Assembly (NCBI RefSeq): GCF_019753045.1
Contig: NZ_JAIELN010000014.1
Location: 1 to 64,000 of the forward strand
Source: Hyphomicrobium sp.
GTDB lineage: Bacteria > Pseudomonadota > Alphaproteobacteria > Rhizobiales > Hyphomicrobiaceae
Length of the DNA stretch: 64,000 nt
Direction: 5' to 3'
In this document: positions 24,664-44,639 of the stretch, piece by piece
Layout: every line of letters begins with the position of its first letter
Position numbering within the stretch: the stretch's first letter is position 1
The notes under the pieces: model-generated
What the model was told of the DNA's origin: nothing
The model's input: the letters and a program-made list of their open reading frames with translations, nothing else
Databases searched by the model: none
Translations under genes and position numbers: made by a program

Positions 24664-25422
24664 TTGGTGCTGAATTCGCGTCCGTGGCAAACCTCGCGGC
24701 GGGACGGCGCCAACAACCTAAGGCTCGCTCCGGGCGTCGTGTGGACTAATGCCGTGAAATTCTTCGCAGAGTTGCTCGATCCTAGAATTGCGATCGCCGA
24801 AGCCCCGCTCACGGGTGAACCTCCTGACCTCTTGGCCGACGAAGCGCTCGTCGTTACTCGTGCCGTTCCGCGCCGCCGTTTGGAATTTGCGATCGGTCGG
24901 GATTGCGCGCGCAAAGCCATGGCGGCCCTGGGCCACGCGGACGTGGCCTTGCCCCGGGGGCAGGATCGAATGCCGGTCTGGCCGGTCGATCTTGTCGGCA
25001 GCATCACGCATACCGGCGGGTGGGCGGCTGCGGCCGTCGCGCGTCGCGACCAGGGCTTCGTGGCGATCGGCATCGACCTCGAGCCGGCAGACGAACTCGC
25101 GTCGGATCTATGGGATTCGGTTTGCTCGGCCGAGGAGCGGGTGAAGCTGGCTGTCGTTTGCGGAGCAACGCCGGGCATCGCTGCTCACCTCATCTTCTGC
25201 ATGAAGGAGGCAGCCTTCAAGTGTCAGTATCCGCTCAGTGGGGCAATGTTGGAGTTCGCTGATTTGGCAGTCGACGTCGACGCTCGAGCCGGTACATTTG
25301 CGGTGACCTATCAGAGGGCCGTACCGCAGTTCCAGATGCATGATAGACTCATCGGACGTTTCGCCATCAGAGACGGTTATATTGCGAGTGCGGTCGTCGT
25401 GACGTCGGAGCGCGCGTCGTGA
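24664..25422 (+). CDS. 4'-phosphopantetheinyl transferase (EntD/Sfp superfamily)
   Basis: A protein of 222-252 residues. The EntD-like signature is clear: AVPRRRLEFAIGRDCARKAM, SITHTGGWAAAAVA, GIGID-like AIGIDLEP with the metal-binding Asp, and FCMKEAAFKC for the second Mg-binding Glu/Lys motif. It would transfer the phosphopantetheine arm of CoA to the serine of carrier domains, here most likely the ACP and PCP of the PKS and NRPS next door. The TTG start has CGGAG ten bases upstream; GTG at 24739 or 24754 would better fit the family N-terminus. Its stop overlaps the next gene start by four bases. Confidence 0.88.
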   Translation: MVLNSRPWQTSRRDGANNLRLAPGVVWTNAVKFFAELLDPRIAIAEAPLTGEPPDLLADEALVVTRAVPRRRLEFAIGRDCARKAMAALGHADVALPRGQDRMPVWPVDLVGSITHTGGWAAAAVARRDQGFVAIGIDLEPADELASDLWDSVCSAEERVKLAVVCGATPGIAAHLIFCMKEAAFKCQYPLSGAMLEFADLAVDVDARAGTFAVTYQRAVPQFQMHDRLIGRFAIRDGYIASAVVVTSERAS

Positions 25423-26558
25423 GACAGGCGCGTACGGGCTGGCTGGTCGCTCTAGCAGCCCTGATAATCTTCACTGGCAACGGAGGCTTGGCCATGAGCG
25501 AAGAGGCGCGTGGGGCTCCCGGCACGCGGGCATGGGCGCCCAAGGATCACGTTCGCGCCTTCTATTCCGGCCACAGCCTCAGCGAAGGCGTTCCAGAGGT
25601 CGTCGAGCAGATCGCGCGGTCTCTCGGAAACCGCTTGGATTTCGAGGTGCAGGTTCTTGGCTACTCACTTTTGCGCCAACGGACGAAAGGGGAGGTGGCT
25701 TCCGCCTCCGAGTGGACGGGATATAGCGCTGGTCACAATCGGCAGGGTGCCGGCTTGAACGTCGCCGAGGAGTTGCGATCGCCCCGGCGCTTGTCGCCCG
25801 GCGACAAGTACGATGTGCTGGTGGTCACCGAACGTCACGACCTCCCGGCCATCGCGCGCAAAGAGCGTACGGCATTCTATTTGACCGAGATGGCAAAGCA
25901 GCTATTGGCGGGTAATCCCGATGCCGAGGTCCTGCTCTATCACACGTGGCTCAACGTGGACCCTGACGCGCCTTGGCCCTGGATCAATTACGAGCGGACG
26001 GTTTCGTTGATGTGGGAGTGCATCGCGAGCCGTGCGAACCTCGACTTGCCCGCGCGCGGCGATGTTCCGCGCGTACGCGTGTTGCCGGGTGCAGGCGCAC
26101 TGGCGGAATTGGCGGCCGCCCTTTGGGAAGGCAAGGTGCCGGGCATCGCGGCCACTTCTCCCGGTGCGCGAGTGCGCCTCCTCTTCTCCGACACCGTTCA
26201 TTTGAGCGACGTCGGACGTTACTATCTGGCGCTGGTTCACTATGCGGTTCTCTTTGGCCGGAGCCCCGAAGGTGCCGCGGTTCCCGCGCCAATTTCTCCT
26301 GAGACAGGCCGCTACATGCAGACGCTGGCGTGGAAGTATGCCGTCGCGTACGGCGAGCGCGCCAATGCCGCCGCGCGGCGCGGCATGGCTGACTGCCGGG
26401 AACTGATGCAAGACAAAGTCTGTCCGGCCTACGCAAACTTTCTGCATGGTTCGGGTATGCCGGTGGTGAGCGCAGTGAGGCGTCAGCTTGTCACCAATGC
26501 GTGCAGGCGCGACTACGCTGGGGCCCAGGATTCTGAGAACCCCTTCGCGTCACCGTAG
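25419..26558 (+). CDS. Secreted SGNH-hydrolase-like protein
   Basis: A 379-residue protein with a GTG start overlapping the PPTase stop (GTGA), so the two are translationally coupled. Residues 1-26 form a signal peptide. FYSGHSLSEGVPE has the position of the GDSL block I Ser, and SDTVHLSDVGRYYLA looks like the DxxH block V. These suggest an SGNH/GDSL esterase or acyltransferase-type fold, acting outside the cytoplasm on an acyl or acetyl ester. Coupling to the PPTase ties it to the NRPS/PKS product or to its attachment to EPS. The specific substrate is unknown. Confidence 0.65.
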   Translation: MRQARTGWLVALAALIIFTGNGGLAMSEEARGAPGTRAWAPKDHVRAFYSGHSLSEGVPEVVEQIARSLGNRLDFEVQVLGYSLLRQRTKGEVASASEWTGYSAGHNRQGAGLNVAEELRSPRRLSPGDKYDVLVVTERHDLPAIARKERTAFYLTEMAKQLLAGNPDAEVLLYHTWLNVDPDAPWPWINYERTVSLMWECIASRANLDLPARGDVPRVRVLPGAGALAELAAALWEGKVPGIAATSPGARVRLLFSDTVHLSDVGRYYLALVHYAVLFGRSPEGAAVPAPISPETGRYMQTLAWKYAVAYGERANAAARRGMADCRELMQDKVCPAYANFLHGSGMPVVSAVRRQLVTNACRRDYAGAQDSENPFASP

Positions 26559-26605: not shown

Positions 26606-29600
26606 TTAAATCGCGCTCGCGTCGGATAACTCCGCGCTGCTGTCGAAATGGAAAACCGCAGCCGGTCCGGCTTGATCACTGGGCTTAGCGCACGCCTTTT
26701 CCAGAGCTCTGTTGAGGTGCCCCATCAGCACTTGGGAATTGGCTCCGAGCATAAGGGTATCGTGATTGCCGGGGATCACTACGGTTTCAACGCCGCCCGT
26801 TATCACCTTGTCCCAACCATAGGAGAGTTCTTCGCTTCTGAAGACGTAACTCGCGCTTGCCGCCCGGAACAGGATCGCTCGGCCGGACCACGGCTCAGGG
26901 TGGTATTTCGAAGCCGCGTTACCGAAATTATCCGTAAGATGACGATTCCGGAGGTGCAGGGGAACAATCTTGTTTTGCCGGATGCAACGTGAGATCTGCC
27001 AGCGCTCGCGTGCTTCGCGGAGCCAATGAAGTCTGACTGATACGATGTCCCTGAGGTAGCCGAGGCCTTCATTACGCAGGCGCGAAACCTTGCGCGCGAA
27101 GTCTACGGTCTGGATGGGCATTTGCGGATGATAGGTATCGAAGAAGACGACGAGAGGTACGTCTTCGCCGAGTTCGGTCAACTGCCGCGCCATTTCGAAC
27201 GCGACCACACCCCCGCCGGAATAGCCCGCCAGCAGATAGGGACCATGTGGCTGCTGTATGCGGATTTCCTCGAGATAGGCCTTAGCCATCTCTTCTATAG
27301 ATTCGTGCGGCCGGCTCGTCCCATCGATGCCGCGGGCCTGCAAACCAAAGAATGGCTGTTCAACCTGCAGCCCCCGGGAAATATCGCGGAAGTTGAGGAC
27401 GTTGCCGCCGGCGCCATGGACGCAGAACAGGGCCGGGCGATTTCCGCCTTTGGCAATGCTGACCAGATACTGAAAGCGCTTCGGCGCGGGTTGTGTTCTT
27501 GCGCCAGCCCCGGCCGCTGTTTCCAACGGTTTGATGCTTGTCGCAGAATCCGTAGCCGGCGGCGCGTCGCCTGCGGCGGGCGGCGATGAAGCTTCTGCTT
27601 CGTCCGCTTTGAAAGGACCGCGCAGCAGTTCCGCCGTCGCGGCAATCGTCGGAGCCTGAAACAGAACGGATAGTGGCAACTCGACCGCGTAATGCTTGCA
27701 GATCCGATTGAGGAGACGGACTGCGATCAGCGATTGACCCCCGAGTTCGAAGAAGTCGTCCGTGATCGAAATATGCGGTACGCCGAGCATCTCCTTCCAC
27801 ATTGCCGCCAGTTCCCGCTCGACTGTGTCGCGGGGCGCGACGATATCGGTGTCGCTGCGCGCAGCGTCGGCCGAAACTTGGGCTGTGGTCGACCGCGCTC
27901 CAGACACGCGATGAGCGCCGGTATTCAGCCGGGAAAGCCAAAGTTCGACGTCGAGCGTCGAGGCAATGATTTGGGGAGAGATATCATTGGCAAGAATGCG
28001 GTCGAGCGCTTCCAATCCTTCCGAAGGCGTCATGCCTTCGCGCAGGTAGCCTTCCGCGGCGCTCTCCGCGACCCGCGGCTTGGCCGAAGCGGCGGTGTCT
28101 GAGACGGCGACGCCCGTCGTCGCGAACGATTGTGCGCGGCGCATGATATAGCGCTCAACGGATACGAGCACATTGCCGTGCTCATCGAGCAAGGTGGCAT
28201 CGAAGATCGCGCTTTTGCCGTCCGCGGAGCGCAATCTCACATGACTGTAAAGTTTCGAGGTAAGACCTTGGCGCACCAGAACGCGGCCGTATGAAAACGG
28301 CACGTAGAATTCCTCGAGGGCGTTGAAGCCCGGGATAAGCATCTGCGCTGCGCCCGTCGCCATGTCGAGCATACCGGGGTGCAGTGCGCACTCTGCAAGA
28401 TCGGAACTGTAGGCGTCCGGTAACGCGATGTGGATGAGCGCCTCGTTCTCTCCGAATTGGATCGACTCGATGTTGGCCCAGCGTGGACCGAAATCCATGA
28501 AGTGCTGCACAAGTCGACCGTTCGGCACCTCGACGGAACGGGAACAACGCTGGCGGATGGCCGGCACCGATTCCTGGGGCGCCGCCGGCGCATCGAAATA
28601 CGCTACGTGAGCCGTCGCGAAAGGCTGCTCCTTTGAATCGCCAAACGCAGTGAAGATATGATCGCCATTGCGGCTCAGCGTGATATTCAACGTACGCGTC
28701 TCATCGACGCCGACAGTAAACGGCTGCAGGAAAGTAAGGTCGCGGATCTCGATAGGTCTGTCTTCGGGCCGATGGGCCAAAGCCGCGCGCGCAAGCTCCA
28801 GGTATCCTGTGCCCGGCATCACCGATTGGCCGCCCTTGACGACATGATCCCCGAGCACCCAGTGCGTCTTCCGGCTCAGCGCCGAGCGGAAACGCGACTG
28901 TTCCGCGTCATCGCTCAAACACTCGCCGAGCGGGGGACCTGTATGGGCGACGGCTCGAACGCCATGCTGTTGCGGCTCGCGAACCAGTGTCGCAAGCATG
29001 CCGACTTTCCATGCGTTCCAGTCGATGCTGATGGTCCGCGTGCGGCAACCGCGTGCCGCGCGGGCCTTCGCGAGTGAGTCGAGGAAAGCATTCGCAGCCG
29101 TGTAGTCCACCTGTCCCGGCAGACCGAGAACCGAGCTGACCGACGAGAACAGCACCAGGAAATCCAATTCGCTCTCACCGAAGAGCGACTGCAATACCAA
29201 GGCGCCCTTGGCCTTGACATCGAGAACAGCCGAGTGGGCGACTGGCGGTCTGAGCGCGATCAGCTGATCCTGCAGCAGGCCGGCGCTATGGAAGACGCCA
29301 TTGATCCGGCCGAAACGCCGCCGCGCCTCTGAAATCACACCCGCCATGGCTCTGCGATCCGTGACGTCGGCCTCGGCCAGCATCACCTCGGCTCCCATGG
29401 CACGGAGCTTCCTGACGCCCCTGATCTTGCGCGAGGTATCGTCATCCTCGCCGTGGTCGTTCAGCCAGGAATTCCAGGCCGCTTCTTCAGGAAGCGCGGA
29501 GCGGCCGACGCTTACGAGACGGGCTTTCCCATGAAGCGCCAGATGCTCCATGACCTCTAAGCCAATGCCGCCAAGTCCACCCGTGATGAGGTAGACGCCG

Positions 29601-32600
29601 CGCTCCCGCAGCCAGGCACGCTGCGTCGGCGCCGGTTCAAGCGGCAATTGTTCGAAGCGTTGGACCCAACGGCCGTTCTTGCGAAGGACGACGAGGGGGC
29701 TGCGATTGTCGCCTTGCACCTCGGCCAGAAGCCGATCCGCGAGTTGAGCTTCGGCGTCCGACCCGGCTGGAGGGACGACCACATCCACAACGGAACATGA
29801 GGCTTCGGGCGTTTCGCGCGGCAAGACTCGGCAGACGCCTGCCAAGGTCGCCTTTTCAGGATGCACCTCTCGCTCGCCTTCGAGCGCTTCTATCGCCGTA
29901 CCGATTGCAGTCAGCCGGAAGCTATCCCCGCCCAAGGCAAACGCTTGCGATAAGTGAAACAGGCTATCGTAGTAACGAACGACGTCGCGATCCCAGGCGG
30001 CAAGATCAGCATCGGGTGCGGAACGCAAGAGCCGCCATGGACGCTGCGCCAAAGCCCAGAGGTGCACGACATGTGCAGGGCTCGCGTTTTCCTGGCGTAA
30101 CTCTGCCTTCAGTCGTGCGTAGTCTTCAGCGTTCGACGGATCGATGCCGAAGGCCAGTCCGCCGCGCACGGCGAAGCGGGATGCCGCCTCCACGGTCGCA
30201 ACCGTCGCGCCGGATCGGCGAAGACGTGTCACGAGCGCGCTCGCCAACGACGAGCCGTCCGTAAATATCAGCCAAGGCTTGCCGAGCTCTTCCGGCGACA
30301 GCGGATCGGGCTGAACAGAACGATGGAAGGATGGCGCAGAGAACCAGGTTGTTAGATCGTTCCTCCGTTTCAGCTGAGGCTGAGCGGAAGGGGCCACGCC
30401 CTTTTCAATCCAATACCGCTGATGCTCGAAGGGATACGTGGGGAGCGGCACCCGGCGTTGAGAACCGCGCTCCAACCGGCTGAGATCAATGTTGCCGCCA
30501 GCGGCCCACACCTTACCGACGGCTTCCAACAGGAACCCGACGTCGGACACGCTCTCCTGAGAATGGCGCAACGTATTGGCGACGACCGCGGCCTTGACCG
30601 GCTGCTGCCGGCATAGGCTCGAAAGCGTGCGTCCGGGACCTACCTCAATCAGTGCAACGCCACGGGTTTGCAACAACGTTGCCGCGCCTTCGTCGAAGCG
30701 CACCGTATTGCGCAGATGGCGAACCCAGTAGGTAGGGTCGGTTGCTTCGGCGTCGGTGATCCACGTTCCCGTCAAGTTGGAAACGAACGGGATCCGCGGC
30801 TTCTGGAACGCAATCTTCCGGCAGTAGCGTTCGAACTCCGGCAGGATCGGCTGAAGCATCGCCGAGTGCGCAGCGACATCGATGTGAACGCGCGTGAACT
30901 CGACTTGAGCGGCGGATAGCTTCTGCTCGAGGTTCGCGATCGCGCGAACGGGACCCGATGCGACGCACAGCGCCGGACCGTTGATCGCGGCGATAGAGAG
31001 TTCATCGCAGAGGAATGCGCGCGCTTCCGCCTCGGGAAGCGGGATGGATAGCATCGCACCACGGGGCAGCTTTTCGAACAGCCTGCCGCGCATCGCGACC
31101 AGAGAAATCGCATCGTGCATCGAAAGAACGCCGGCGACGCAAGCCGCCGCATACTCGCCCGCGCTATGGCCGATCAGGGCAGCAGGCGTCACGCCCCACG
31201 ATGCCAGCAGTTTGGCCAGCGCGTATTCTGTTGCGAAAAGAGCAGGCAGGGCGAGTGATGGCGCGGCGAGTCTCAGGTTCGAGATCTCAGCCGAGCTCGG
31301 GGGCGCGAACATCAGCGAGCGCAGATCGACACCAAGTTCTGGCTGAACGACGGCAAGACATTCGTCGATCGCCTTGCGATATTCAGGGAACTTTTCGTAA
31401 AGCTCCGCCCCCATTCCGCAATACTGCGCCCCGCCGCCGGGGAAAAGAAATGCCGTGGAATGAGGCTCGCGCGCGGCCTTGCCCGTGAACACTCGGCGCA
31501 CATCGTTCTCATCGAGCAATAGAGCGGCTGAGGCCGCGCTGTTCGCGACGAACGCCCGGCGACACTCGAAGCTCTCACGTCCATTCATCAGCGTGAAGGC
31601 GACGTCGTCGAGCCGTTGTTGCTGATCTCCGCGCAAGTGATCGGCGAGGTTCTTGGAAGCCGCATCGAGCGCCTTGTTGCTGCGCGCCGAGAGCACCAGC
31701 AACTGCGGTTCGTTTTCACGGCCGACGGTTGCCCTTCGCGGCGGTGCCTCTTCGAGCACGAGATGCGCGTTGGTGCCTCCAGCACCTAAGCTCGTGATGC
31801 CCGCGATCCGCCGCTTGCCGGACCGGACGTTCCACGGCTGAAGGTCGGCATTGACGAAAAACGGCGTGTTCGACAGATCGGCCTGCGGATTTGGCTTTCG
31901 GTAGTGAAGACTTGCTGGAAGCTCGCGGTGCTCGAGTGCGCAGATCACCTTGATGAGGCCACAAATGCCGGAGGCCTCGCCTGCGTGCCCGATATTGGAT
32001 TTGAGCGAGCCGATGGCGCACGACTGCTTCGGCACTTCCGGACCAAACGCCTCGACAAGCGCCGCGACCTCGATCGGATCGCCTATCAGCGTACCGGTTC
32101 CGTGGGCCTCAATGTACGATACGTCACTCGGGTCGATACCGGCCAGATCGAGTGCTTCGGAGATGACCCGTGCCTGCCCGCTGACGCTTGGCGCAAGATA
32201 ACCCACCTTGTCGGAACCGTCGTTGTTGACGGCAGAAGCCCGTATCACTGCACGAATGCAATCGCCGTCGCGGATGGCGTCCGAAAGCCGCTTCAGCAGA
32301 ACGCAACCCGTAGCCGAAGCCATGACGGTTCCACTGGCATCCGCGTCGAAGGGGCGGCAATGGCCGTCAGGCGAGAGGATCTCTCCGGGCCTATAGAGAT
32401 AACCGGTTTGCTCCGGATAGATCGTTGAGCCGCCAGCCAGCGCCACATCGCATTCGCCGTTGAGAAGGCTCTGACATGCGACGTGCACGGCGACGAGCGA
32501 CGACGAACAGGCCGTCTGCACGTTCATGCTCGGGCCGCTGAGGTTCAGCTCGTATGAAACCCGTGTGGCAAGGAAATTGGAGTCGTTGCCGGTATGGCGC

Positions 32601-33061
32601 AAAAGCCATGCGCCGATCGTTTCCAGCACCTCTTGGTTCGTGACGAGATTGTAAGTGAAATATTCGGTGGCGCCGGAGGAGGCAAAGACTCCGACCCGTC
32701 CGTCGATTTTTTCGCCTACGTAGCCCGCGTCCTCGAAAGCTTCCCAAGAGCATTCCAGAAAGAAACGGTGCTGCGGATCAAAGACCGCGGCATCGCGCGG
32801 CGACAATCCGAAGAATGCAGCATCGAATTGGTCTATTCCGTCCAGATAGCCGCAAGCTTTGACGTATGCCGGATCGCGAACGGTTTCGAGTGAAACGCCG
32901 GAGGCAAGTAATTCTTCTTCGCTGAATACGCGAATGGACTCGCGACCTTCTCTCAGGTTTTTCCAGAAGGTGGCGACGTTGGATGCACCTGGGAACCTGC
33001 CCGAAATGCCAATGATCGCTATCGCATGATCTTGGTCGTCGTTCCGATCCCCCTGTGTCAT
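26606..33061 (-). CDS. Modular type I polyketide synthase, KS-AT-KR-DH-ACP-TE
   Basis: A 2151-residue megasynthase. KS (10-440) has Cys185 in QTACSSSL and His320/His359 in EAHGTGT and NIGHA. AT (535-835) has Ser633 in GHSAGE and His732. Residues 905-1100 look like the structural half of a ketoreductase. KR (1150-1330) has TGGLGGIG, Tyr1320 and Asn1324. DH (1375-1645) lies after KR, with His1406 and Asp1566 in HPGMLD; its first motif has one extra residue (HVVKGGQSVMP). ACP Ser1777 is in LGGQSL. The TE (1865-2125) has Ser1948 (GYSGGG), Asp1975 and His2100. It makes one or more reduced, dehydrated extensions and releases the chain itself. It is divergent from the NRPS gene. Confidence 0.93.
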   Translation of the reverse strand: MTQGDRNDDQDHAIAIIGISGRFPGASNVATFWKNLREGRESIRVFSEEELLASGVSLETVRDPAYVKACGYLDGIDQFDAAFFGLSPRDAAVFDPQHRFFLECSWEAFEDAGYVGEKIDGRVGVFASSGATEYFTYNLVTNQEVLETIGAWLLRHTGNDSNFLATRVSYELNLSGPSMNVQTACSSSLVAVHVACQSLLNGECDVALAGGSTIYPEQTGYLYRPGEILSPDGHCRPFDADASGTVMASATGCVLLKRLSDAIRDGDCIRAVIRASAVNNDGSDKVGYLAPSVSGQARVISEALDLAGIDPSDVSYIEAHGTGTLIGDPIEVAALVEAFGPEVPKQSCAIGSLKSNIGHAGEASGICGLIKVICALEHRELPASLHYRKPNPQADLSNTPFFVNADLQPWNVRSGKRRIAGITSLGAGGTNAHLVLEEAPPRRATVGRENEPQLLVLSARSNKALDAASKNLADHLRGDQQQRLDDVAFTLMNGRESFECRRAFVANSAASAALLLDENDVRRVFTGKAAREPHSTAFLFPGGGAQYCGMGAELYEKFPEYRKAIDECLAVVQPELGVDLRSLMFAPPSSAEISNLRLAAPSLALPALFATEYALAKLLASWGVTPAALIGHSAGEYAAACVAGVLSMHDAISLVAMRGRLFEKLPRGAMLSIPLPEAEARAFLCDELSIAAINGPALCVASGPVRAIANLEQKLSAAQVEFTRVHIDVAAHSAMLQPILPEFERYCRKIAFQKPRIPFVSNLTGTWITDAEATDPTYWVRHLRNTVRFDEGAATLLQTRGVALIEVGPGRTLSSLCRQQPVKAAVVANTLRHSQESVSDVGFLLEAVGKVWAAGGNIDLSRLERGSQRRVPLPTYPFEHQRYWIEKGVAPSAQPQLKRRNDLTTWFSAPSFHRSVQPDPLSPEELGKPWLIFTDGSSLASALVTRLRRSGATVATVEAASRFAVRGGLAFGIDPSNAEDYARLKAELRQENASPAHVVHLWALAQRPWRLLRSAPDADLAAWDRDVVRYYDSLFHLSQAFALGGDSFRLTAIGTAIEALEGEREVHPEKATLAGVCRVLPRETPEASCSVVDVVVPPAGSDAEAQLADRLLAEVQGDNRSPLVVLRKNGRWVQRFEQLPLEPAPTQRAWLRERGVYLITGGLGGIGLEVMEHLALHGKARLVSVGRSALPEEAAWNSWLNDHGEDDDTSRKIRGVRKLRAMGAEVMLAEADVTDRRAMAGVISEARRRFGRINGVFHSAGLLQDQLIALRPPVAHSAVLDVKAKGALVLQSLFGESELDFLVLFSSVSSVLGLPGQVDYTAANAFLDSLAKARAARGCRTRTISIDWNAWKVGMLATLVREPQQHGVRAVAHTGPPLGECLSDDAEQSRFRSALSRKTHWVLGDHVVKGGQSVMPGTGYLELARAALAHRPEDRPIEIRDLTFLQPFTVGVDETRTLNITLSRNGDHIFTAFGDSKEQPFATAHVAYFDAPAAPQESVPAIRQRCSRSVEVPNGRLVQHFMDFGPRWANIESIQFGENEALIHIALPDAYSSDLAECALHPGMLDMATGAAQMLIPGFNALEEFYVPFSYGRVLVRQGLTSKLYSHVRLRSADGKSAIFDATLLDEHGNVLVSVERYIMRRAQSFATTGVAVSDTAASAKPRVAESAAEGYLREGMTPSEGLEALDRILANDISPQIIASTLDVELWLSRLNTGAHRVSGARSTTAQVSADAARSDTDIVAPRDTVERELAAMWKEMLGVPHISITDDFFELGGQSLIAVRLLNRICKHYAVELPLSVLFQAPTIAATAELLRGPFKADEAEASSPPAAGDAPPATDSATSIKPLETAAGAGARTQPAPKRFQYLVSIAKGGNRPALFCVHGAGGNVLNFRDISRGLQVEQPFFGLQARGIDGTSRPHESIEEMAKAYLEEIRIQQPHGPYLLAGYSGGGVVAFEMARQLTELGEDVPLVVFFDTYHPQMPIQTVDFARKVSRLRNEGLGYLRDIVSVRLHWLREARERWQISRCIRQNKIVPLHLRNRHLTDNFGNAASKYHPEPWSGRAILFRAASASYVFRSEELSYGWDKVITGGVETVVIPGNHDTLMLGANSQVLMGHLNRALEKACAKPSDQAGPAAVFHFDSSAELSDASAI

Positions 33062-33391: not shown

Positions 33392-36300
33392 ATGATCGAA
33401 GATTTGTATCCCCTTTCCCCCCTCCAGCAGGGAATGCTGTTCCACCATCTCGAGGCGCAAACTCCCGGTGTTGACGTGGAGCAGCTCGAGGTCGAACTCA
33501 ACGAGACGATCGACGCTAACCTTCTGGCGCGCGCCTGGGCCATTGTCGCCGCGCAGCATCCGATCCTTCGCACCCGCTTTAGCTGGAAGGATTTGCGAAA
33601 CCCCATTCAGGAAGTTTTAAGCGAGGTTAAAATCCCGCTCGACGTGCGGGATTTATCGGCATTGTCGCCTGACGAGCAGGTAGCGGCGCTCAGAGCCTTC
33701 CTGACGGAAGATCGATTGACGGCTTTGCCTTTGGACGTGGCGCCGCTCTGGCGTGTAACTCTATTTCACCTTGGTGCAGACCGGCACCAGCTTGTTTTCA
33801 CCTACTCCCACGCGATCCTCGACTCCTGCTTCGCGTTCATTGTCCGGGACGTGTTCGATACGTACGCCGCCCTTGGGCGAGGCGAACAACCGTCCTTTTC
33901 ACATCGTCCGCCGTATCGCGATTTTATAACCTGGCTCGGCGAGCATCTTGCGTCGAGCGCTGATGCTGCCGAGACTTTCTGGCGGACTGCCCTCGCGGGG
34001 TTTCAGACGCCGACCAACTTGGAGGCACTACGCCTTTCAAGTAGCTCGGCGCGCACATCCGGACCTCACGCCACGCTCGAGTTTGCGCTGTCTCCGGCGC
34101 ACACGGCGAAGCTTCACGCACTCTGCGATAAGGCTGGTCTGCGAACGTCGACTGTCATAGAGGCCGCCTGGGCGCTCGTGCTTTCGGCGTTTTCCGGCCG
34201 TGACGATGTCGCTTTTGGCGTTACGCGGACTTGCCGCCGGTCATCGATCAAGGACGCCGATCGGATCGTCGGGCTTTTCATCAATACCTTGCCCGTGCGG
34301 GTCAAGCTTGACGGCGATCTGAGTGCGCTCGAATTCTGCCAGCAAATGCGGCGCAATCAGATTGAAACGCGCGCCTTCGAGCATTCGCCCCTGCCGGATG
34401 TGCTTCGTCACAGCGAGCTGCCCCGCTCGCAGACTCTCTTCGACACGATTATCGTCTTCAACGCAGAGACCAACGACGCGCGCTTCAAGTCGTTTGGACC
34501 TGAGTGGCAACTCCGGCATTTCAAGCTGCACGACCAGACGAACTTTGCGTTCAACGTGATGGCCTACGACGGCCCTCAGATTACGTTCAAGCTCTCTTAC
34601 GATGCGGGCTGCTTTTCCCGATCGGCGGCGGACAGGATCGGCGACATGCTGCAAGTGGTGCTGCACGCGATCGCCGACAATCCGGATGCGAAGATTGCCA
34701 ATCTGCCGCGTCTCCCATCGCATGATGAGCAATTGGTGCTGCAGACCTGGAACGCGACGGACAAGCCGTTGCCCGGCCCCGGCTGCATTCACGAGGCCTT
34801 TGAAGCGCAGGTCGATCGTACGCCGGATGCAGTAGCGCTTGTCGATGGCAACAGGTCGATCACCTACCGCGAGTTGGACAAACGCGCCAATCAGCTGGCC
34901 CACGAGATCCTCGCCCAAGGCGTGAAGCCGGATCAGATGGTCGGAATTTTCATCGAGCGTTCCATCGAGATGATGGTGGGCCTCCTCGGCATTTTGAAAG
35001 CCGGCGCGGCGTATGTGCCGATGGACCCGTCTTACCCGAGCGAGCGCCTCGCGATCATTCTCGAAGACACGCAAGCGCGGATCGTCGTTACGACATCGGA
35101 CCTGCGCACCAAATTGCCCGTGGGATTGAATGTCATTTGCGCAGACCCAGCCGGTCAGAATGGAAATGACGAGCGGCCGCGGGTTGCGGTGAACGCCAAC
35201 AACCTGGCGTACGTGATCTTCACGTCCGGCTCCACGGGACGCCCCAAAGGCGTGATGCTGGAACACCACAACGTAACGAGCTTCTTCACCGGGATGGATC
35301 ATGCCCTCGGAACAGCGCCCGGCGTGTGGCTCGCAACAACCAGCATCTCGTTCGACATCTCGGTGCTCGAGCTGTTTTGGACGTTGGCTCGCGGATTTAA
35401 AGTGGTGATCCAGAAGGAAGCTGAGCGCGAGGCACGCGCGGCCCAGCAACGAGCCAGCGCCACACCCATCGATTTCAGCTTGTTCTATTTTGCAGCCGAC
35501 TCCGACGATGCCGCCGGCAAGGCCAGCGGCAGATACCGTCTGTTGCTTGAGGGCGCAAAATTTGCTGACGAGAATGGCTTTTCCGCTATCTGGACGCCGG
35601 AACGGCACTTCCATCCGTTTGGCGGTTTGTACCCGAACCCCGCGGTAACAGGTGCGGCAGTCGCGGCCGTCACGCGGCGCGTCGCCATCCGCGCCGGTAG
35701 CGTCGTGCTCCCCTTGCACAGTCCATTTCGTATCGCCGAAGAGTGGTCGATGGTGGACAATCTCTCCAACGGCCGCGTCGGTCTGAGCTTCGCCTCTGGC
35801 TGGCACGTACGCGATTTCGCTTTGCAGCCTCAAAACTACAAAAGCCGGCGCGAGCTTTTTGCCCGCGGTATCGAAACGGTCAAAGCGCTGTGGCGCGGCG
35901 AGGCCGTCGAAACGATCGATGGCGACGGGCAGACGGTTCAGCTGAAGACCTTCCCGCCGCCGGTGCAGAAAGAACCCAAATTATGGGTAACTGCCAGTTC
36001 GCATCCCGATACGTTTGCGCTCGCAGGGCGAATGGGCGCCAACGTCCTGACGAACCTTCTGGTGATGAAGCCCGAGCAGTTCATCGAGAACGTTGCCGTT
36101 TATCGCAAGGCCTGGGCCGAAGCGGGCCATGAGGGGCGGGGATCGGTGTCGCTGATGCTCCACACCTTCGTCGGTGCAGATGAAGAAGAAGTGCGGCGCA
36201 AGGTTCGCGGCCCCTTCATTGAATACCTCAAGACGTCGACCGACTTGGTCGCGAAGATGCGGTGGGAGTTGACTCCCTTTGCCAAGCGCGATGACCGCGA

Positions 36301-38974
36301 TGCTTCCGACCCGCGTATGGCTTTGTCGGATCTGCAGCCGGAAGAACTCGACGCCATCATGGAGCACGCTTTCGCGCGCTACTTCGAAACGGCAGGCTTA
36401 TTTGGAACGCCGGCATCTTGCGTCGCCAAGATCGAGAAACTGAAGGCGTATGGCGTCGACGAAATCGCCTGCTTGATCGATTTCGGCATCTCGACCGAAG
36501 ACGTGTTGGCTAACCTTCCGCACCTTGATGAATTGCGCCGGATGACCAATCCCATCGGCGAAGAACTGAACCAGGATATCCCTTCACAAATCGTCCGCCA
36601 CGGCGTGAGCCATATGCAGGCCACTCCGTCTCTTGCGAGCATCCTGGCGTCCGACGATGCCTCACTCAATACGCTGGGACATTTGCGCATGCTGCTGCTG
36701 GGCGGCGAGGCGCTCCCGCGTGTGCTGATCGATCGATTGCGTTCCAGATACCAGGGACCGATCCACAATATGTACGGCCCGACCGAGACCTGCATCTGGT
36801 CGACGACAGCCAAGGTCGGCGGTGCTGGCGATCAGATCACCATTGGCGGCCCGATTGCGAATACTCGTGTCTACGTGGTCGATCAATTCATGCGTCCACT
36901 GCCGATTGGCGTGCCCGGTGAAATTGTCATTGGTGGCGCGGGCGTTGCGCGCGGCTATCTGGGACGGCCAGAGCTCACCGAAGAACGGTTCGTCCCCGAT
37001 CCGTTCGGCCGGGACGACGGGCGCCTCTACCGCACGGGCGATCTCGGGCGCTGGCTCCCCAATGGCACGATTGAATACCTCGGCCGGCTCGATCAGCAGG
37101 TAAAGATTCGCGGTCATAGGATTGAGCCTGGCGAGATCGAGTCGGTGCTGAGCCGGCATCCCTCGGTGAAGCAAAGCGCTGTCGTCTCGCGGTCCGACGA
37201 AGGCAGCAGCGAGCAACGCCTCATTGCCTATGTCGTGCCTGTCGCCAATAGCAGCGGAGCGTCTGCCGCTCCGAGCACGGCGCATTGGGAAACGATCTGG
37301 GACGAGACCTATCGCGGCACGGGTGACGCTGTCTCTGAAACGGTGGGTTGGCGGAGCAGTTACACCGGCGAACAAATCCCCGACGCTGAAATGCAGGATT
37401 GGATCGAGCGGACGGTTGAGCGAGTCCAGGATCTCCGGCCACAACGCATCCTCGAAATCGGCTGCGGAACGGGCATGATCCTTTTGCGCGTTGCGCCCAA
37501 CTGCGATCGCTACCACGGCATTGACCTCTCCGCGGCTGCACTTGCGCGCGTGAGAAACGAAGCTGATCGGAAGGGGCTAGGCAACGTCGTTCTCGAGCAG
37601 CGGGCGGCAAACACGGTCGCTTCCATGGACGGCGGGCCGTTCGACACGATCGTCATAAATTCCGTGGCGCAGTACTTTCCGAACGTCGAGTACTTCATCG
37701 ATGTACTCGAGCAGTGCATCGAAAAGCTGGCGCCGGGCGGGGCGATCTTCGTCGGCGACGTGCGTAGCCGGGCCCTTCTTGAGGTCATGCTGGCGGAAAT
37801 CGAACTGCTCAAGGCCTCGCCGGACACGCAGGCGGACGAGCTTCGCACGCGTCTGCGCAAGCGGGTCGATGACGAGGCGGAACTGGTGCTGGACCCGGAG
37901 CTGTTTCGGGCACTACTGAAGTTCATTCCCTCGGTCGAAAGTGTCGAAGTGGAACTGAAGACCGGGCGCGCGCAGACCGAGATGACGCGCTTCCGCTACG
38001 ACGTCGTCATCCGTAAGCAAGGTGGAATATCGCTTTCGCCCCTCGCAACGACGGCAGTGCAGGCGCCGCAACCATGCACGGTCGAGGCGTTGGGCGACAT
38101 CTTGCGATCTGCACAATCACCCATCCGCGTGACCGGTATCCCGAACGCCCGCGTGGCATCGGCGATAGCGGCGCTTGACCAGCTCAATGCACTGTCACCT
38201 TCGGCAAAACTAGGTTCTCTGGCGGGTCATTCCGACAACAGCCGTCAGCATTCCGTTGGGATCGACCCCGAAGACGTCAGATCGCTCGCTGAAAAGGGCG
38301 ATGTCGCCATCGAGTGGTCAGCCGCCGGACGGGAATTCTTCGATGCAGTCTATCGTCCTCGCGTGCCGGGGGTGACACACGCGACCGATACGGGCGTCAT
38401 TGGTGTTGCAAACTCTGATGACGGCGCTTCGCCGGATTGGTCTCAGTATGCAAATCGCCCAGTGCTCCGGGCCGCAGGGGAAGATTCGCTCATGCCGGCT
38501 CTGCGTCAGCATCTGCGCAAGGCGCTCCCGGAGTACATGCTGCCGTCGGCATTTGTCTTGCTCGATGCGTTGCCTTTAACTCCCAACGGCAAGCTCGATC
38601 GGCAAGCTCTGCCCGCGCCCGATCGCGCCCGCCACGAAACAGCGACAGCCTTTGTCGCGCCGGCGACGGACGTGGAACGCGAGCTTGCAAGTATCTTCCA
38701 GGACGTTCTGGGGTTGGCCGAGGTCGGGCTCGATGACAACTTCTTTGACCTCGGCGCCAGTTCCCTGACGATGGTCAGTGTCGTCGAGAAGATCCGCACG
38801 CGGATGGGAACGAAAGTGTCGCTCGTGCGCCTGTTTCAGTTCCCAACGTTGCGAAGCTTGGCCGCTTCGCTCGCAAACCGCGAGCGTGAGGCAGCAACGG
38901 TCGCGCCGGAACAGAGCCGCGCCAGCTTCCGCAAGGACTCGATGCAGCGCCGGCGCGAAGCACGTGCTCGATAG
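33392..38974 (+). CDS. NRPS, C-A(luciferase-like monooxygenase)(methyltransferase)-PCP
   Basis: An 1860-residue synthetase (ATG 33392; an upstream TTG at 33377 would add five). C domain at 3-445, with motif SHAILDS instead of HHxxxDG and intact VGLFINTLPVRV. The A domain starts near 465 and has A3 IFTSGSTGRPKG, A4 FDISVLE, A5 MYGPTET, A7 YRTGDLG, A8 GRLDQQVKIRGHRIEPGE and A10 NGKLD. Between A4 and A5 (about 35459-36550) sits a full FMN-type luciferase-like monooxygenase domain (GFSAIWTPERHFHPFGG, NGRVGLSFASGWH). Between A8 and A9 (37265-38020) sits a SAM methyltransferase (EIGCGTG). The PCP serine is in LGASSL (about 38762). No TE, so the chain should pass to another protein, probably the PKS. 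The code looks glycine-like. Confidence 0.93.
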   Translation: MIEDLYPLSPLQQGMLFHHLEAQTPGVDVEQLEVELNETIDANLLARAWAIVAAQHPILRTRFSWKDLRNPIQEVLSEVKIPLDVRDLSALSPDEQVAALRAFLTEDRLTALPLDVAPLWRVTLFHLGADRHQLVFTYSHAILDSCFAFIVRDVFDTYAALGRGEQPSFSHRPPYRDFITWLGEHLASSADAAETFWRTALAGFQTPTNLEALRLSSSSARTSGPHATLEFALSPAHTAKLHALCDKAGLRTSTVIEAAWALVLSAFSGRDDVAFGVTRTCRRSSIKDADRIVGLFINTLPVRVKLDGDLSALEFCQQMRRNQIETRAFEHSPLPDVLRHSELPRSQTLFDTIIVFNAETNDARFKSFGPEWQLRHFKLHDQTNFAFNVMAYDGPQITFKLSYDAGCFSRSAADRIGDMLQVVLHAIADNPDAKIANLPRLPSHDEQLVLQTWNATDKPLPGPGCIHEAFEAQVDRTPDAVALVDGNRSITYRELDKRANQLAHEILAQGVKPDQMVGIFIERSIEMMVGLLGILKAGAAYVPMDPSYPSERLAIILEDTQARIVVTTSDLRTKLPVGLNVICADPAGQNGNDERPRVAVNANNLAYVIFTSGSTGRPKGVMLEHHNVTSFFTGMDHALGTAPGVWLATTSISFDISVLELFWTLARGFKVVIQKEAEREARAAQQRASATPIDFSLFYFAADSDDAAGKASGRYRLLLEGAKFADENGFSAIWTPERHFHPFGGLYPNPAVTGAAVAAVTRRVAIRAGSVVLPLHSPFRIAEEWSMVDNLSNGRVGLSFASGWHVRDFALQPQNYKSRRELFARGIETVKALWRGEAVETIDGDGQTVQLKTFPPPVQKEPKLWVTASSHPDTFALAGRMGANVLTNLLVMKPEQFIENVAVYRKAWAEAGHEGRGSVSLMLHTFVGADEEEVRRKVRGPFIEYLKTSTDLVAKMRWELTPFAKRDDRDASDPRMALSDLQPEELDAIMEHAFARYFETAGLFGTPASCVAKIEKLKAYGVDEIACLIDFGISTEDVLANLPHLDELRRMTNPIGEELNQDIPSQIVRHGVSHMQATPSLASILASDDASLNTLGHLRMLLLGGEALPRVLIDRLRSRYQGPIHNMYGPTETCIWSTTAKVGGAGDQITIGGPIANTRVYVVDQFMRPLPIGVPGEIVIGGAGVARGYLGRPELTEERFVPDPFGRDDGRLYRTGDLGRWLPNGTIEYLGRLDQQVKIRGHRIEPGEIESVLSRHPSVKQSAVVSRSDEGSSEQRLIAYVVPVANSSGASAAPSTAHWETIWDETYRGTGDAVSETVGWRSSYTGEQIPDAEMQDWIERTVERVQDLRPQRILEIGCGTGMILLRVAPNCDRYHGIDLSAAALARVRNEADRKGLGNVVLEQRAANTVASMDGGPFDTIVINSVAQYFPNVEYFIDVLEQCIEKLAPGGAIFVGDVRSRALLEVMLAEIELLKASPDTQADELRTRLRKRVDDEAELVLDPELFRALLKFIPSVESVEVELKTGRAQTEMTRFRYDVVIRKQGGISLSPLATTAVQAPQPCTVEALGDILRSAQSPIRVTGIPNARVASAIAALDQLNALSPSAKLGSLAGHSDNSRQHSVGIDPEDVRSLAEKGDVAIEWSAAGREFFDAVYRPRVPGVTHATDTGVIGVANSDDGASPDWSQYANRPVLRAAGEDSLMPALRQHLRKALPEYMLPSAFVLLDALPLTPNGKLDRQALPAPDRARHETATAFVAPATDVERELASIFQDVLGLAEVGLDDNFFDLGASSLTMVSVVEKIRTRMGTKVSLVRLFQFPTLRSLAASLANREREAATVAPEQSRASFRKDSMQRRREARAR

Positions 38975-39019: not shown

Positions 39020-40294
39020 TTATACGACAAGTAACCCCAGTTTATCCTGAAGCTGGGGAGCTACCAGAGTGGCAGTAATGATTGCTCGGAGCGACCGCTC
39101 GCGGTAGCGGGAAACCATGTCGAACAGAGCTCGGCTTCTGTAGCCTTTGCGGACCGAAAAGCCTCCCGCATAGGAGATGACGTGCGGATCCCAGCGAGCT
39201 TTCGAAATATCGGTTCCGGTAGATAGGTTCACGATCCGCAACTTGTTGTCGATCGCCCATTTGACGGCTTCCACAACGACTGTCGTCATTACACTATAGC
39301 GGCCCCAGCGGGGATCGTAACCGGAGTAGTAGAGATATAATTCGTCGCCGAATCTGAAGCCAATTCTGGTCGCCACGACCTCGTCGTTTATCACGAGCTG
39401 AAAAATTCGGAGCGCTCCGCGCCGAGCGAGTTCCGTGCAGTACTGAAGCATGAAGGAACGGCTGACAGGCGAAGCAAAAACATTGTTGTGTTTGATCGAA
39501 GCGGCTGCATTGGCGCGAGCCGCATGAAGAGCAAAAAGTCGATCAAGCGCTGCTGGTACATCCTCAGGCTTGTCTATGATGCGGAGCTGAGGCGTGATTT
39601 TTTCGCTGGCCAGAGAATTGTAACACTTTCTGATGGCCTGTTTCATATTCCTGGATAAGTTCGCTCTGAACTGCTCCCAGGTCGGTGCCAGATGGAGAAT
39701 ATGAACCGTCGTGTTTAGATAAGGCGTTTGACGGATTCTCGCGGGCAACGTTGTCGCCGCCTGTTGCAATCGCAGTCCGCGCCACTGCACCCAGTCGGCT
39801 CCGTTCGCGTTATCCAAAAAAACAGAGATCGAGCGAACGACTGCGGGTGTGTGCTCGGGCAGACAGAGAGGACCGCGGAATTCTGTGACGTTTGAGTCCG
39901 CTCCGAAAAACTGAAGTTCCTTCGCGCTCAGCGGCCCATAGCCAGGCCGTTGCGTCACAATCATAGGGGCAACCGCGACAAGCTCGCCGCTGTCGTTACG
40001 CAATAGGAAAAGGCGAGGGAAGTCTTTGGCCTTTACATTGTTGCGCTTGTAGTGTTGCCACCAGGTCGAAGCCCATAAGTGCGTCGTAAACGGCAGGCGA
40101 GGCGAAATGCGCTCGTGGAGCGAATCCCATTGCGCAATCAAATCGTTCAGGCCGGAGTCGTCGATTATCGTCTCGACGCTCAGCGTCGGATCGCCTTCGG
40201 CACAAAGATGTGCGGCATTCGCGATGCCTGCCTCTAATTTCATCATTGTCGTTCCGGTCGTAGATATCGCGCCCCGGGTATCGGAATTGAACAC
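39020..40294 (-). CDS. GNAT-fold protein of the CelD/BcsL type
   Basis: A protein of 408-424 residues with a double GNAT-like (FemAB-like) layout. The N-terminal half has LPFTTHLWASTWWQHY and LVAVAPMIV. The C-terminal acetyltransferase domain includes RANLSRNMKQAIRKCYN, HAARANAAASI and LYLYYSGYDPRWGRYSVMTTVVVEAVKWA, typical of CelD/BcsL proteins found in cellulose and EPS loci. It probably transfers an acyl or aminoacyl group onto a sugar or lipid. It is convergent with the NRPS gene (45-base gap), so it is the right border of the biosynthetic island. Starts at 40246 or 40243 are equally possible. Confidence 0.75.
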   Translation of the reverse strand: MFNSDTRGAISTTGTTMMKLEAGIANAAHLCAEGDPTLSVETIIDDSGLNDLIAQWDSLHERISPRLPFTTHLWASTWWQHYKRNNVKAKDFPRLFLLRNDSGELVAVAPMIVTQRPGYGPLSAKELQFFGADSNVTEFRGPLCLPEHTPAVVRSISVFLDNANGADWVQWRGLRLQQAATTLPARIRQTPYLNTTVHILHLAPTWEQFRANLSRNMKQAIRKCYNSLASEKITPQLRIIDKPEDVPAALDRLFALHAARANAAASIKHNNVFASPVSRSFMLQYCTELARRGALRIFQLVINDEVVATRIGFRFGDELYLYYSGYDPRWGRYSVMTTVVVEAVKWAIDNKLRIVNLSTGTDISKARWDPHVISYAGGFSVRKGYRSRALFDMVSRYRERSLRAIITATLVAPQLQDKLGLLVV

Positions 40295-41513: not shown

Positions 41514-44500
41514 TTAGGCGCTTTCGGCCGTGGAGGCCGCCGGCGGAGTCTTCTCGCCGTCGCGCGCAAATCTTGCCTTGAGCTTCTCGAGCAGCAGGTA
41601 GATCACCGGCGTTGTGTAGAGCGTCAGGATCTGAGAGACGACAAGCCCGCCGATGATCGTGATGCCGAGCGGCCGGCGCAATTCCGACCCAGGGCCCACC
41701 GCAACGGCGAGCGGAATGGCGCCGAGCAACGCGGCCAGCGTTGTCATTAAGATAGGACGGAACCGCTGCAGACAAGCGTCGTAGATCGCAGCCTGCGGCG
41801 AGAGCCCGCGCTCGCGCTCCGCATGCAACGCGAAATCGACGAGCATGATGCCGTTCTTCTTCACGATGCCGATCAGCAAAATGACGCCGATGAGCGCAAT
41901 GACCGAGAGGTCCATGCTTGCCATCTGCAACGCAAGCAACGCACCGAGGCCCGCCGAAGGCAGCGTCGAGATGATCGTCAGCGGATGCGCGAGACTTTCG
42001 TACAGAACGCCGAGCACGATATAGATCGCGACGAGCGCCGCCAGGATCAGCAGCGTCTGTTGGTGCGCCTGCTCGACGAACGCCTTGGCGTCACCCGCAG
42101 GTTCACCGTGAATTGTCTCCGGCATATGCAAAGCCTGGAGAGCGGCGTCGATGCCTTGGAGACTTGTATCCATGCTGACGCCGGGCCGCAGATTGTAGTT
42201 GATCGTCACGGCAGGGAACGGGCCCTGATGGTTGACGACCAGCGGCGCGATACCTTCGCTCGTCGAAATGACGCTCGAGAGCGGGATCTGCTGCGTGCGG
42301 TCGATCGTCGGCACATAGATCCGCGATATATCCTTGGGATGCGCCTGGAGCTTCGGATCGATTTCCAGAATGACTTTGTATTGGTTACGATCGCCGTAAA
42401 TCGTCGAGAATTGGGTTTGCGAGAAGGCGTTCGAGAGCGCGTTGTCGATATCGACGATTGCGACGTTCAGTCGTGACGCGACGTCGCGATTGATGTTGAC
42501 GTTGAGTTGCAGTCCCCCGGCCTCGCGATCGGACGTCACGTCCGCAAGTCCAGGAACGGCACGCACCGCATCGATGACTTTCGGCACCCACGCGTAGAGA
42601 TCCTCGGCGTTGATCGCCCACAGTGTATATTGATAGTCGGCCTTGCCGGAGCGTGCTCCGGCCCGAATGTCGCGAGACGGCATGAGCCTCGTCGCCAGTC
42701 CGACGATTTTGCCGAGAGGCGCGCGCAATCGATCGATGACGACTGCGGTCGAAACATTGTGGCGCTCTTCGATCGGCTTCAGGCTGATGAACATGCGGCC
42801 TTGGTTCTGCGTCGGATTGGGGCCGCCGGCGCCGATGGATGAGCCGACGTTGTCGACCGCCGGATCGGCGAGGATCACGTTGAGAGCCTGCTTCTGGAGC
42901 CGGCTCATCTCTGCAAATGACACGTCGGCGTTGGCCTCCGTCGCAGCGATGATCAGGCCGGTGTCGTCCTCGGGCAGGTAGCCCTTGGGCAGCACTGAAT
43001 AGAAATGGATGGTCAGCACGATCGTCGCCAGGAAGACCGCGAGCATCACGAGCTGATTGCGGAGGGCAATTCTAAGCGTGAAGGCATAGCCCCTGACGAC
43101 AAGGGCAAGCGCCCCCTCGAAAATGCGGTCGGCGAGATTCCTGTGTGCCTCGGCTCCAGACTTGATGAAGTGAGCGCAGATCATCGGCGTGACCGTGAGC
43201 GATACGACGGCCGAGATGGCGATGGCGAATGTCAGCGTCAGTGCAAACTCGTGCAGCAGCCGGCCGACGATCCCGGTCATGAACAGAACCGGGATGAATG
43301 CCGCGACCAGCGATACCGAGATCGAAATGACGGTGAAGCCGATCTGCCTGGATCCTGCGAGCGCGGCGGCATAGGGCTTCATGCCCTTTTCCATATTGCG
43401 ATAGACGTTCTCGATCATCACGATCGCATCGTCGACGACGAAGCCAACGGCGACGGCGAGCGCCATCAGCGTAAGATTGTTGATCGAAAACCCTGCGGCC
43501 CACATCGCAGCGCATGTACCCGCGAGCGACAGCGGCACCGTTATCCCCGCCGCAATCGTCGGCGTCGGGCGTCTGAGAAAAACGAACACGACGGACATGA
43601 CGAGCAGGATCGTCAACCCGAGCGTGAACTGCATATCGTGAACGGACGCACGGATAGTCGTCGTCCGGTCGCTGAGGATCGAAATGTCTATCCCAGCAGG
43701 AATCCATTCCTTGAGCTGGGGAAGCAGCGCTTTCACCCGGTCGACCGTGTCGATGACGTTCGCCTCGGGCGTCTTCGTGATGATCAGAAGCACCGCTGGA
43801 GCATGGCCAAACCGCGCGGACGAGCGCGCGTTTCGCGTTGCCTTGATGACTGTCGCGACGTCCCCGACCTTGACGATATCGCCGTTCGGCATGTTCTTGA
43901 CGACGATGTTTTTGTACTCGTCGGGCTCGGTCATCTGCTCGTTCGACTGCAGTATGATCGTTTGCTGTTCCCCATCCACCGATCCGATTGGCGAGAGATC
44001 GTTGGCGTTGGAAACGGCATTCTTCACATCCTCGAAACTGACGCCCATCGCAGCAACGAGCGTGGGATCGACCTGGATGCGCGTCGCCGGTTGGTCCGCG
44101 CCGCTGACAGTCACATCCGCCACGCCCTCGACCTGCGAAATACGCTGGCCGATGACGGTGTCGGCGGTATCGTAGATGGCGCCCGTCGCCATCGTCTTTG
44201 ACGTCAACGCGAGGATGAGAATGGGCGCGGCGGAAGGGTTCGCTTTCCGGAATGTCGGAACTTGCGGAAGGTCGCCCGGAAGATCTGCGGTCGCTGCGTT
44301 CAAGGCCGCCTGCACGTCGCGGCCCGCGCCGTCGATGTTGCGATTGAGGTCGAACTGCATCGCGATAGACGTCGAGCCGAGCGAGTTCGTCGACGTCATC
44401 TCCGTGACGCCAGCGATTTCGCCGAGACGCCGTTCGAGCGGCGAGGCGACGCTCGATGCCATCGTGGTCGGGTCGGCGCCGGGACGCGTCGCCATGATGC

Positions 44501-44636: not shown

Positions 44637-44639
44637 CGC

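Follow-up and report, generated by a model that had tools for sequence, protein, structure and literature searches.

The window, a stretch of 64,000 nucleotides from Hyphomicrobium sp. (contig NZ_JAIELN010000014.1), carries on its forward strand a single-module nonribosomal peptide synthetase (NRPS) of 1860 aa at 33392..38974, which is one open frame without a break (ATG at 33392, stop ending at 38974). Profile matches (Pfam, NCBIfam), core motifs and alignment gave the domain order C–A(a1–a4)–LLM–A(a5–a8)–MT–A(a9–a10)–PCP, where a luciferase-like monooxygenase (LLM) and a methyltransferase (MT) interrupt the adenylation (A) domain. On the same strand follow, in order, the condensation (C) domain at 33398..34732 (residues 3-447; PF00668, 5.8e-76), the first A part (a1-a4) at 34799..35428 (PF00501, best stretch 470-679), the second (a5-a8) at 36569..37249 (TIGR01733 stretch from residue 1060, PF13193 to 1286), the last (a9-a10, with NGKLDR) at 38489..38626 by orthologue alignment, and the peptidyl carrier domain (PCP; LGASSL, residues 1764-1825; PF00550, PP-binding) at 38681..38866. 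The AMP-binding match of Pfam is split over two stretches (7.7e-89), and a Pfam scan of the whole protein found no thioesterase (TE). By eye on the orthologue alignment, a4 (FDIS) falls at residues 654-657 just ahead of the LLM, a5 (NMYGPTE) at 1126-1132 beyond it, a8 (RGHRIEPGE) at 1240-1248 ahead of the MT and a9/a10 (LPEYMLP, NGKLDR) at 1712-1737 past it, these being the stretches that fit the consensus of the core motifs. An A domain split twice, as a sequence-only reading of this DNA had proposed, was thus borne out by Pfam, NCBIfam and alignment, with the LLM at a4-a5 and the MT at a8-a9.

The same architecture was recovered by alignment in four other Hyphomicrobium genomes at 87-94% identity, and the NRPS orthologue of Bradyrhizobium rifense is about 67% identical. 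That an assembly chimera, a danger already raised for this frame, or a reading-frame artefact lies behind the double insert is extremely improbable, and we rejected it because orthologues with the same architecture occur in other Hyphomicrobium genomes, in B. rifense and in metagenome-assembled genomes (MAGs) from other phyla.

The first insert (35474..36538, forward strand) is a putative FMN-dependent monooxygenase of the MupA/Atu3671 family. TIGR04020 of NCBIfam spans residues 695-1049 over its full length (model 1-341 of 341) and scores 484.7 bits (cut-off 244.45), and Bac_luciferase of Pfam matches residues 699-1023 (1.4e-49). A flavin-type monooxygenase had been placed between A4 and A5 at about 35459-36550, with TIGR04020 named as the model to run, and the match now sets the insert within the luciferase-like superfamily at this very site. 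The closest solved LLM was PuwE (6ket, E 3.2e-103, over the entire domain), which we take to belong to the puwainaphycin pathway. An LLM lying between a4 and a5 of an A domain places the module with the MtaG/MelG-type embedded monooxygenases (MOX).

The second insert (37277..38191, forward strand) is a putative SAM-dependent methyltransferase of the N-MT type, matched by Methyltransf_12 of Pfam at residues 1354-1451 (6.7e-16) and by several MT models that jointly span 1332-1469. Its top PDB match was 5wmm (E 1.4e-48, residues 3-296 of the 308 searched), presumably the interrupted A domain of TioS with its backbone N-MT. The gap between a8 and a9 measures 410 aa in all four same-genus orthologues measured, and therefore the insert is longer than first stated: its site between A8 and A9 stands, but in place of about 37265-38020 the insert region runs from about 37277 to 38488, with the MT proper reaching about 38191 and a less conserved linker after it. 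Every one of the 19 scanned ORFs with an MT (a count that includes duplicates) keeps the SAM motif (EIGCGTG/EVGCGTG). The EMTRFRYDV motif of the Hyphomicrobium and Bradyrhizobium MTs aligns with 5wmm, and a similar motif was found by a narrow pattern in 13 of the 19. An MT at a8-a9 with an intact SAM motif groups the module with the TioS-type interrupted A domains, and this MT would methylate the amine of the carrier-bound amino acid, as in TioS.

In the comparison with Hyphomicrobium facile, the LLM had a dN/dS of 0.033, the MT 0.127, the C domain 0.146 and the linker behind the MT 0.256, and a9-a10 together with the PCP had 0.011. When seven segments were ranked in each of six comparisons, the LLM was lowest in five and second-lowest in one, and the linker was the highest segment in five of the six (dS toward two Bradyrhizobium-like sequences was near saturation). 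Both inserts are, on these ratios, under purifying selection, and they look intact because of the low dN/dS together with the conserved SAM motif.

The substrate pocket, mapped by hand in PheA numbering, reads DILQLGMIW plus the a10 lysine (K), with D655, I656 and L659 coming from the first A part. In a survey, four MOX-bearing glycine-activating A domains share exactly DILQLGMIWK (PMC12283262). Thirty-nine of 40 aligned LLM modules, the window included, fit DILQ[LMY]GM[IV]W, and the remaining one (L119) reads DIQQLGMIW. With this pocket code the A domain belongs with the glycine-type MOX domains and is predicted to select glycine.

At the start of the module the C-domain active site reads SHAILDS in place of HHxxxDG, with the second His and the Asp kept, in all six aligned orthologues including that of the window. 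The scan that gave the relatives named here was seeded with MT-bearing LLMs, and they are its best 80 of 508 confirmed stretches, so that the share of MTs among them is not a prevalence. An HMM built here found a formyltransferase domain instead of C at the start in 45 of 98 relatives among the matches listed, and Formyl_trans_N of Pfam was present in both formyl-type examples scanned (L080 and L030). Four loci (L080, L082, L084 and L091) join formyltransferase, LLM and MT. Since formyl-type and C-type members both carry LLM and MT, the A(LLM)(MT) unit is predicted to work behind two kinds of starter. Among the genes of the window that were scanned with Pfam and NCBIfam, none was recognised as encoding an acyl donor or a flavin reductase. 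Formyltransferase-A(Gly, LLM)-PCP followed by KS-AT-KR-DH-ACP-TE was also observed as a widespread arrangement in Proteobacteria and in MAGs of other phyla (L070, L071, L084, L085, L105, L113, L136 and others), and we know of no product for this group.

Divergent from the NRPS, on the reverse strand at 26606..33061, lies the partner polyketide synthase (PKS) with the order KS-AT-KR-DH-ACP-TE by Pfam, whose orthologues also stand beside the NRPS. An NRPS without TE thus adjoins a PKS with TE, the arrangement of an NRPS-to-PKS bimodular line, here in divergent orientation. Both genes are common to B. rifense and to G322, a genome of the same order, at 65-67% identity. Among the matches listed, 98 relatives had flanks, and in 39 of them a KS begins 0-200 nt downstream on the NRPS strand (24 formyl-type, 14 C-type and 1 of unknown type); in the rest the KS was divergent (10) or absent from the tested spots (30), or the flank was too short (19). 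Four of the 30 loci without a KS at the tested spots (L030, L032, L034 and L035) have a full PKS in convergent orientation. The 15 double-insert relatives have the KS downstream (4) or divergent (7), are cut (1) or are without it (L073, L079 and L091), the KS of L091 lying about 1.9 kb on. Matches to KS, AT, KR, DH and TE fell in one ORF at 35 of the 98 loci, the window not counted. The KS cysteine was kept in 36 of 36 PKS ORFs and the histidines in every variant listed (the six commonest per motif), and among these commonest variants some relatives have altered KR and TE motifs (GGLGDIALDL, GLCAGG). The usual DH motif is HxxxGxxxxP, and that of the window PKS, HVVKGGQSVMP, is one residue over.

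The NRPS ends in a basic C-terminal tail, SRASFRKDSMQRRREARAR (38882..38971, forward strand), a proposed docking element for the PKS that resembles the tails of relatives. An arginine-rich pattern was found in 59 of the 82 relatives with 20-60 aa past the PCP, and by eye several of the 23 tails outside the pattern are similar too. Six loci without an adjacent KS (L078, L079, L083, L133, L139 and L143) have quite different, non-basic tails, but L031, L033, L141 and L142 have basic tails despite lacking an adjacent KS, so that the link between tail and KS is loose and docking of the NRPS to the PKS through this tail is suggestive only. The chain would move from PCP to KS, which would make the TE of the PKS the point of release.

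Beyond the PKS, as seen from the NRPS, lies a gene for a Sfp/Npt-type 4'-phosphopantetheinyl transferase (24664..25422, forward strand; PF17837 and PF01648 over cut-off, NCBIfam Npt/PptT below cut-off), which likely activates the PCP and the ACP. The next gene (25419..26558, forward strand) encodes a putative exported SGNH-hydrolase-like protein, recognised by eye from GHSLS, DTVH and a signal-like N-terminus, and is the third gene common with B. rifense beside the NRPS-PKS pair. The protein is 68-75% identical in B. rifense and G322 and 72% in L030, a formyl-type locus of the same family. No Pfam family matched it over cut-off, an assignment to DUF4886 was dropped as its Pfam match is far under cut-off, and no sequence match was found among solved structures. 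It could be a hydrolase or an acyltransferase acting on the product.

An exopolysaccharide-type (EPS) cluster (window 1-24000) borders the NRPS-PKS locus, with genes for GT2 and GT4 glycosyltransferases, Polysacc_synt (Wzx-like), Wzy_C, WcaJ, GH9 and hexapeptide-repeat proteins. Among the matches listed and with relatedness ignored, a WcaJ-like gene was present at 11 of 45 formyl-type loci and at none of the 49 C-type ones, and at least one of seven EPS genes at 19 of 45 and 4 of 49, respectively. Left out of these counts are four loci whose start type is unknown, the window itself and the WcaJ genes of its own genus. On the other side of the NRPS, an Acetyltransf_6 (FemX-like) gene at 39020-40294 adjoins it in four of five Hyphomicrobium genomes and was not found at the G060 locus. 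RND efflux genes follow at 41514-49153, comprising an AcrB-family pump, a second similar pump gene and a membrane-fusion protein. They are syntenic in four other Hyphomicrobium genomes, the second pump gene is reflected in two matches to the first pump in each of L025-L028, and the RND genes were unmatched at the B. rifense and G322 loci.

As to the spread of the double insert, five of 22 Hyphomicrobium genomes listed have the LLM and all five carry both inserts; in G043, of the same genus, the LLM is 98% identical. Among the matches listed, both inserts also occur in G322, in B. rifense and in MAGs of Myxococcales (1), Verrucomicrobia (2), Gemmatimonadaceae (1) and Hyphomonadaceae/Henriciella (3) and one further MAG, as well as in a Pedosphaera MAG whose sequence is cut within the insert region. 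In a family sample 16 of 103 genomes had TIGR04020, in an order sample 14 of 397 and in a class sample 13 of 387, the genomes overlapping; an MT was carried by 5, 4 and 1 of these positive genomes, respectively, G094 being left undecided as it is cut before a9. In some of the sampled genomes with TIGR04020 the LLM does not lie within an A domain at a4-a5. At L154 (genome G725) the LLM sits not at a4-a5 but at a8-a9, the site reported for SolF of solanimycin. In Cyanosarcina, an ORF (L128:7766-13174) whose LLM lies at a4-a5 carries some 290 further aa at a8-a9, which give no MT profile match and might be a second insert of another kind.

In a quick tree of 106 LLM rows, all 16 double-insert rows fell in one clade of 18 rows (SH-aLRT 91, not starred) that spans Alphaproteobacteria, Myxococcales, Verrucomicrobia and Gemmatimonadaceae, the other two rows being contig-truncated ahead of a9. 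The window and 123 ORFs made up 124 rows, of which 18 were left out of the tree. Among these, L025, L026 and L028 share their genomes with L066, L067 and L065, and the 4-kb loci L040-L047 repeat longer ones. L055, L056 and a frame of L144 have no A-domain part ahead of the LLM, and in L152-L155 the LLM lies in the A domain at a8-a9 (L154) or outside A domains (the other three). Scored with truncated rows as absent, the MT state changes three times on the tree, and once without the three truncated rows. Within the clade, L077 and L112 seem to have lost the MT, but in both the contig ends there, and the MT of L108 was not counted as it sits in the preceding module. The simplest reading of a tree whose direction, gain vs loss, is not readable would be one old acquisition of the MT and its subsequent spread. 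The statement that both inserts in one module are rare therefore needs a qualifier, as the double insert forms a coherent clade present in several phyla.

From the domain order, the insertion sites, the glycine code, the sequence conservation and the PKS pairing, which are observed directly, we infer the chemistry of the line, including its acyl donor, the order in which methylation and hydroxylation occur, carbinolamide retention, tail docking and the product. The reading that we favour, with a reasonable degree of confidence, is that of a two-protein NRPS-PKS line which begins with this NRPS module and in which glycine would be N-methylated, acylated, alpha-hydroxylated, extended once by the PKS and released by its TE. 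The A domain would load glycine onto the PCP, the MT at a8-a9 would methylate its nitrogen as in TioS, the C domain would add an acyl group (a formyltransferase adding formyl in sister systems), and the LLM at a4-a5 would hydroxylate the alpha-carbon with FMNH2 and O2. The resulting N-acyl-N-methyl-alpha-hydroxyglycyl group would pass to the PKS, aided by the basic C-terminal tail, where one malonyl unit would be added, KR would reduce, DH would dehydrate and TE would release the product. That one glycine would be both oxidised and N-methylated, as had been proposed, follows by homology, and the modified glycine is probably made for the partner PKS. Weighing against this reading are the degenerate C-domain motif, the failure to recognise an acyl donor or flavin reductase among the window genes scanned, the longer DH motif of the window PKS and the altered KR and TE motifs of some relatives, the 30 of 98 loci that lack a KS at the tested spots, and the loose link between tail and KS.

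In myxothiazol and melithiazol biosynthesis, as described in the parts of PMC10204066 and PMC11342130 that treat them, the glycine MOX hydroxylates the alpha carbon and the carbinolamide then breaks, so that retention is not the default. A comparable cleavage here, in which the carbinolamide collapses to an N-methyl amide and a glyoxylyl-S-PCP that is hydrolysed or primes the PKS, is a serious though minority alternative: the window has the same insert at the same site as MtaG/MelG, where cleavage occurs (PMC10204066, PMC11342130; both in part), its code is identical to that of the MOX-Gly domains in PMC12283262, and the MT would account for the N-methyl amide. It fits poorly with an NRPS that has no TE and a partner PKS that has one, and formyl-type members with an MT would by this route release mere N-methylformamide. 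Methylating a formamide nitrogen that is then lost would be pointless, and the retention of the MT in formyl-type members is therefore the strongest argument for keeping the nitrogen. Solanimycin B, in the account given in sections of PMC10204066, sets a precedent against cleavage as well, its hydroxyglycine being kept and the chain extended.

The chemistry of LLM-fold enzymes is diverse, and the formyltransferase starters of many relatives would suit N-formyl-N-hydroxy groups, so the LLM might instead oxidise elsewhere, e.g. the nitrogen to a hydroxylamine or hydroxamate, with the MT then methylating oxygen or nitrogen. We regard this as quite unlikely: an N-methyl N-acyl nitrogen is incompatible with a hydroxamate, no other solved chain comes near the interrupted A domain 5wmm as a match to the MT, and the glycine-embedded MOX domains described in the relevant parts of PMC10204066 and PMC11342130 hydroxylate the alpha carbon. 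About equally improbable is that one insert is inactive and retained merely as a structural part. The degenerate C-domain motif makes the decay of parts conceivable, but dN/dS is well under 1 for both inserts in six of six comparisons and no MT-bearing ORF scanned (19 of 19, duplicates included) has lost the SAM motif.

Going beyond the favoured two-protein line with glycine nitrogen retained, we tentatively speculate that a clade of trifunctional glycine A domains starts a minimal two-protein line leading to gamma-(N-acyl-N-methylamino)-gamma-hydroxy-crotonate-type products, in which the N-methyl group blocks lactam closure, and which may serve a surface component. If so, the products would be a masked fumaraldehydic acid or its aminobutenolide, and as the N-methyl group would block a lactam closure open to the MT-less formyl-type sisters, one insert would decide the product class. 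The line of the window and many formyl-type sisters, lying beside exopolysaccharide genes, might then supply or modify a surface component. The clade and its MT-less sisters with the same kind of PKS offer ready-made pairs for testing how a4-a5 and a8-a9 inserts are jointly tolerated and how N-methylation affects the fate of the alpha-hydroxyglycyl group. A native A domain with two enzyme classes also bears on the artificial trifunctional A domains made by engineers, as outlined in part of PMC11355689. Glycine MOX modules in the sample here often pass to a PKS and not to a chain end, and their annotation should change.

A MOX at a4-a5, an MT at a8-a9 and a double insertion (ColG) have each already been published, and we found no report of a monooxygenase and an MT in one A domain in the literature searched, a body that lies apart from the key reviews. 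The module resembles MtaG/MelG in having a flavin monooxygenase at a4-a5 of a glycine A domain, according to the relevant part of PMC10204066, and differs from MtaG, compared by description, in its second insert (N-MT type, a8-a9), its lack of a TE and its PKS partner. An MtaG/MelG-type terminal module, which is a last module with a TE, was ruled out on the latter two grounds. The comparison with MtaG/MelG offered by the sequence-only reading hence stands for the insertion site (PMC10204066, in part) and the glycine code, but the terminal-amide outcome is not simply transferable because of the missing TE and the PKS pairing.

PuwE (6ket), the closest solved LLM, is in its entry a standalone chain of 362 aa and not within an A domain. 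The corallorazine-like NRPSs of Serratia and Pseudomonas share a MOx within a glycine A domain, but act in a lipodipeptide context, and the part of PMC11342130 that describes them mentions no MT insert. TioS, in the thiocoraline pathway, has an N-MT at a8-a9 to which the MT here is homologous over nearly its full length, but has no LLM; Table 2 and the adjoining text of PMC11355689 list it as N-methylating at a8-a9 and cite a structural paper on how an interrupted A domain N-methylates the backbone. ColG of columbamide likewise has two catalytic inserts per A domain, but in that table (PMC11355689) both are MTs and both lie at a8-a9. Module 4 of SolF (solanimycin) comes near in its proposed outcome, as a glycine A domain with a flavin monooxygenase where hydroxyglycine is kept and the chain continues; unlike the module here, its insert lies at a8-a9, and the sections of PMC10204066 on SolF mention no MT.
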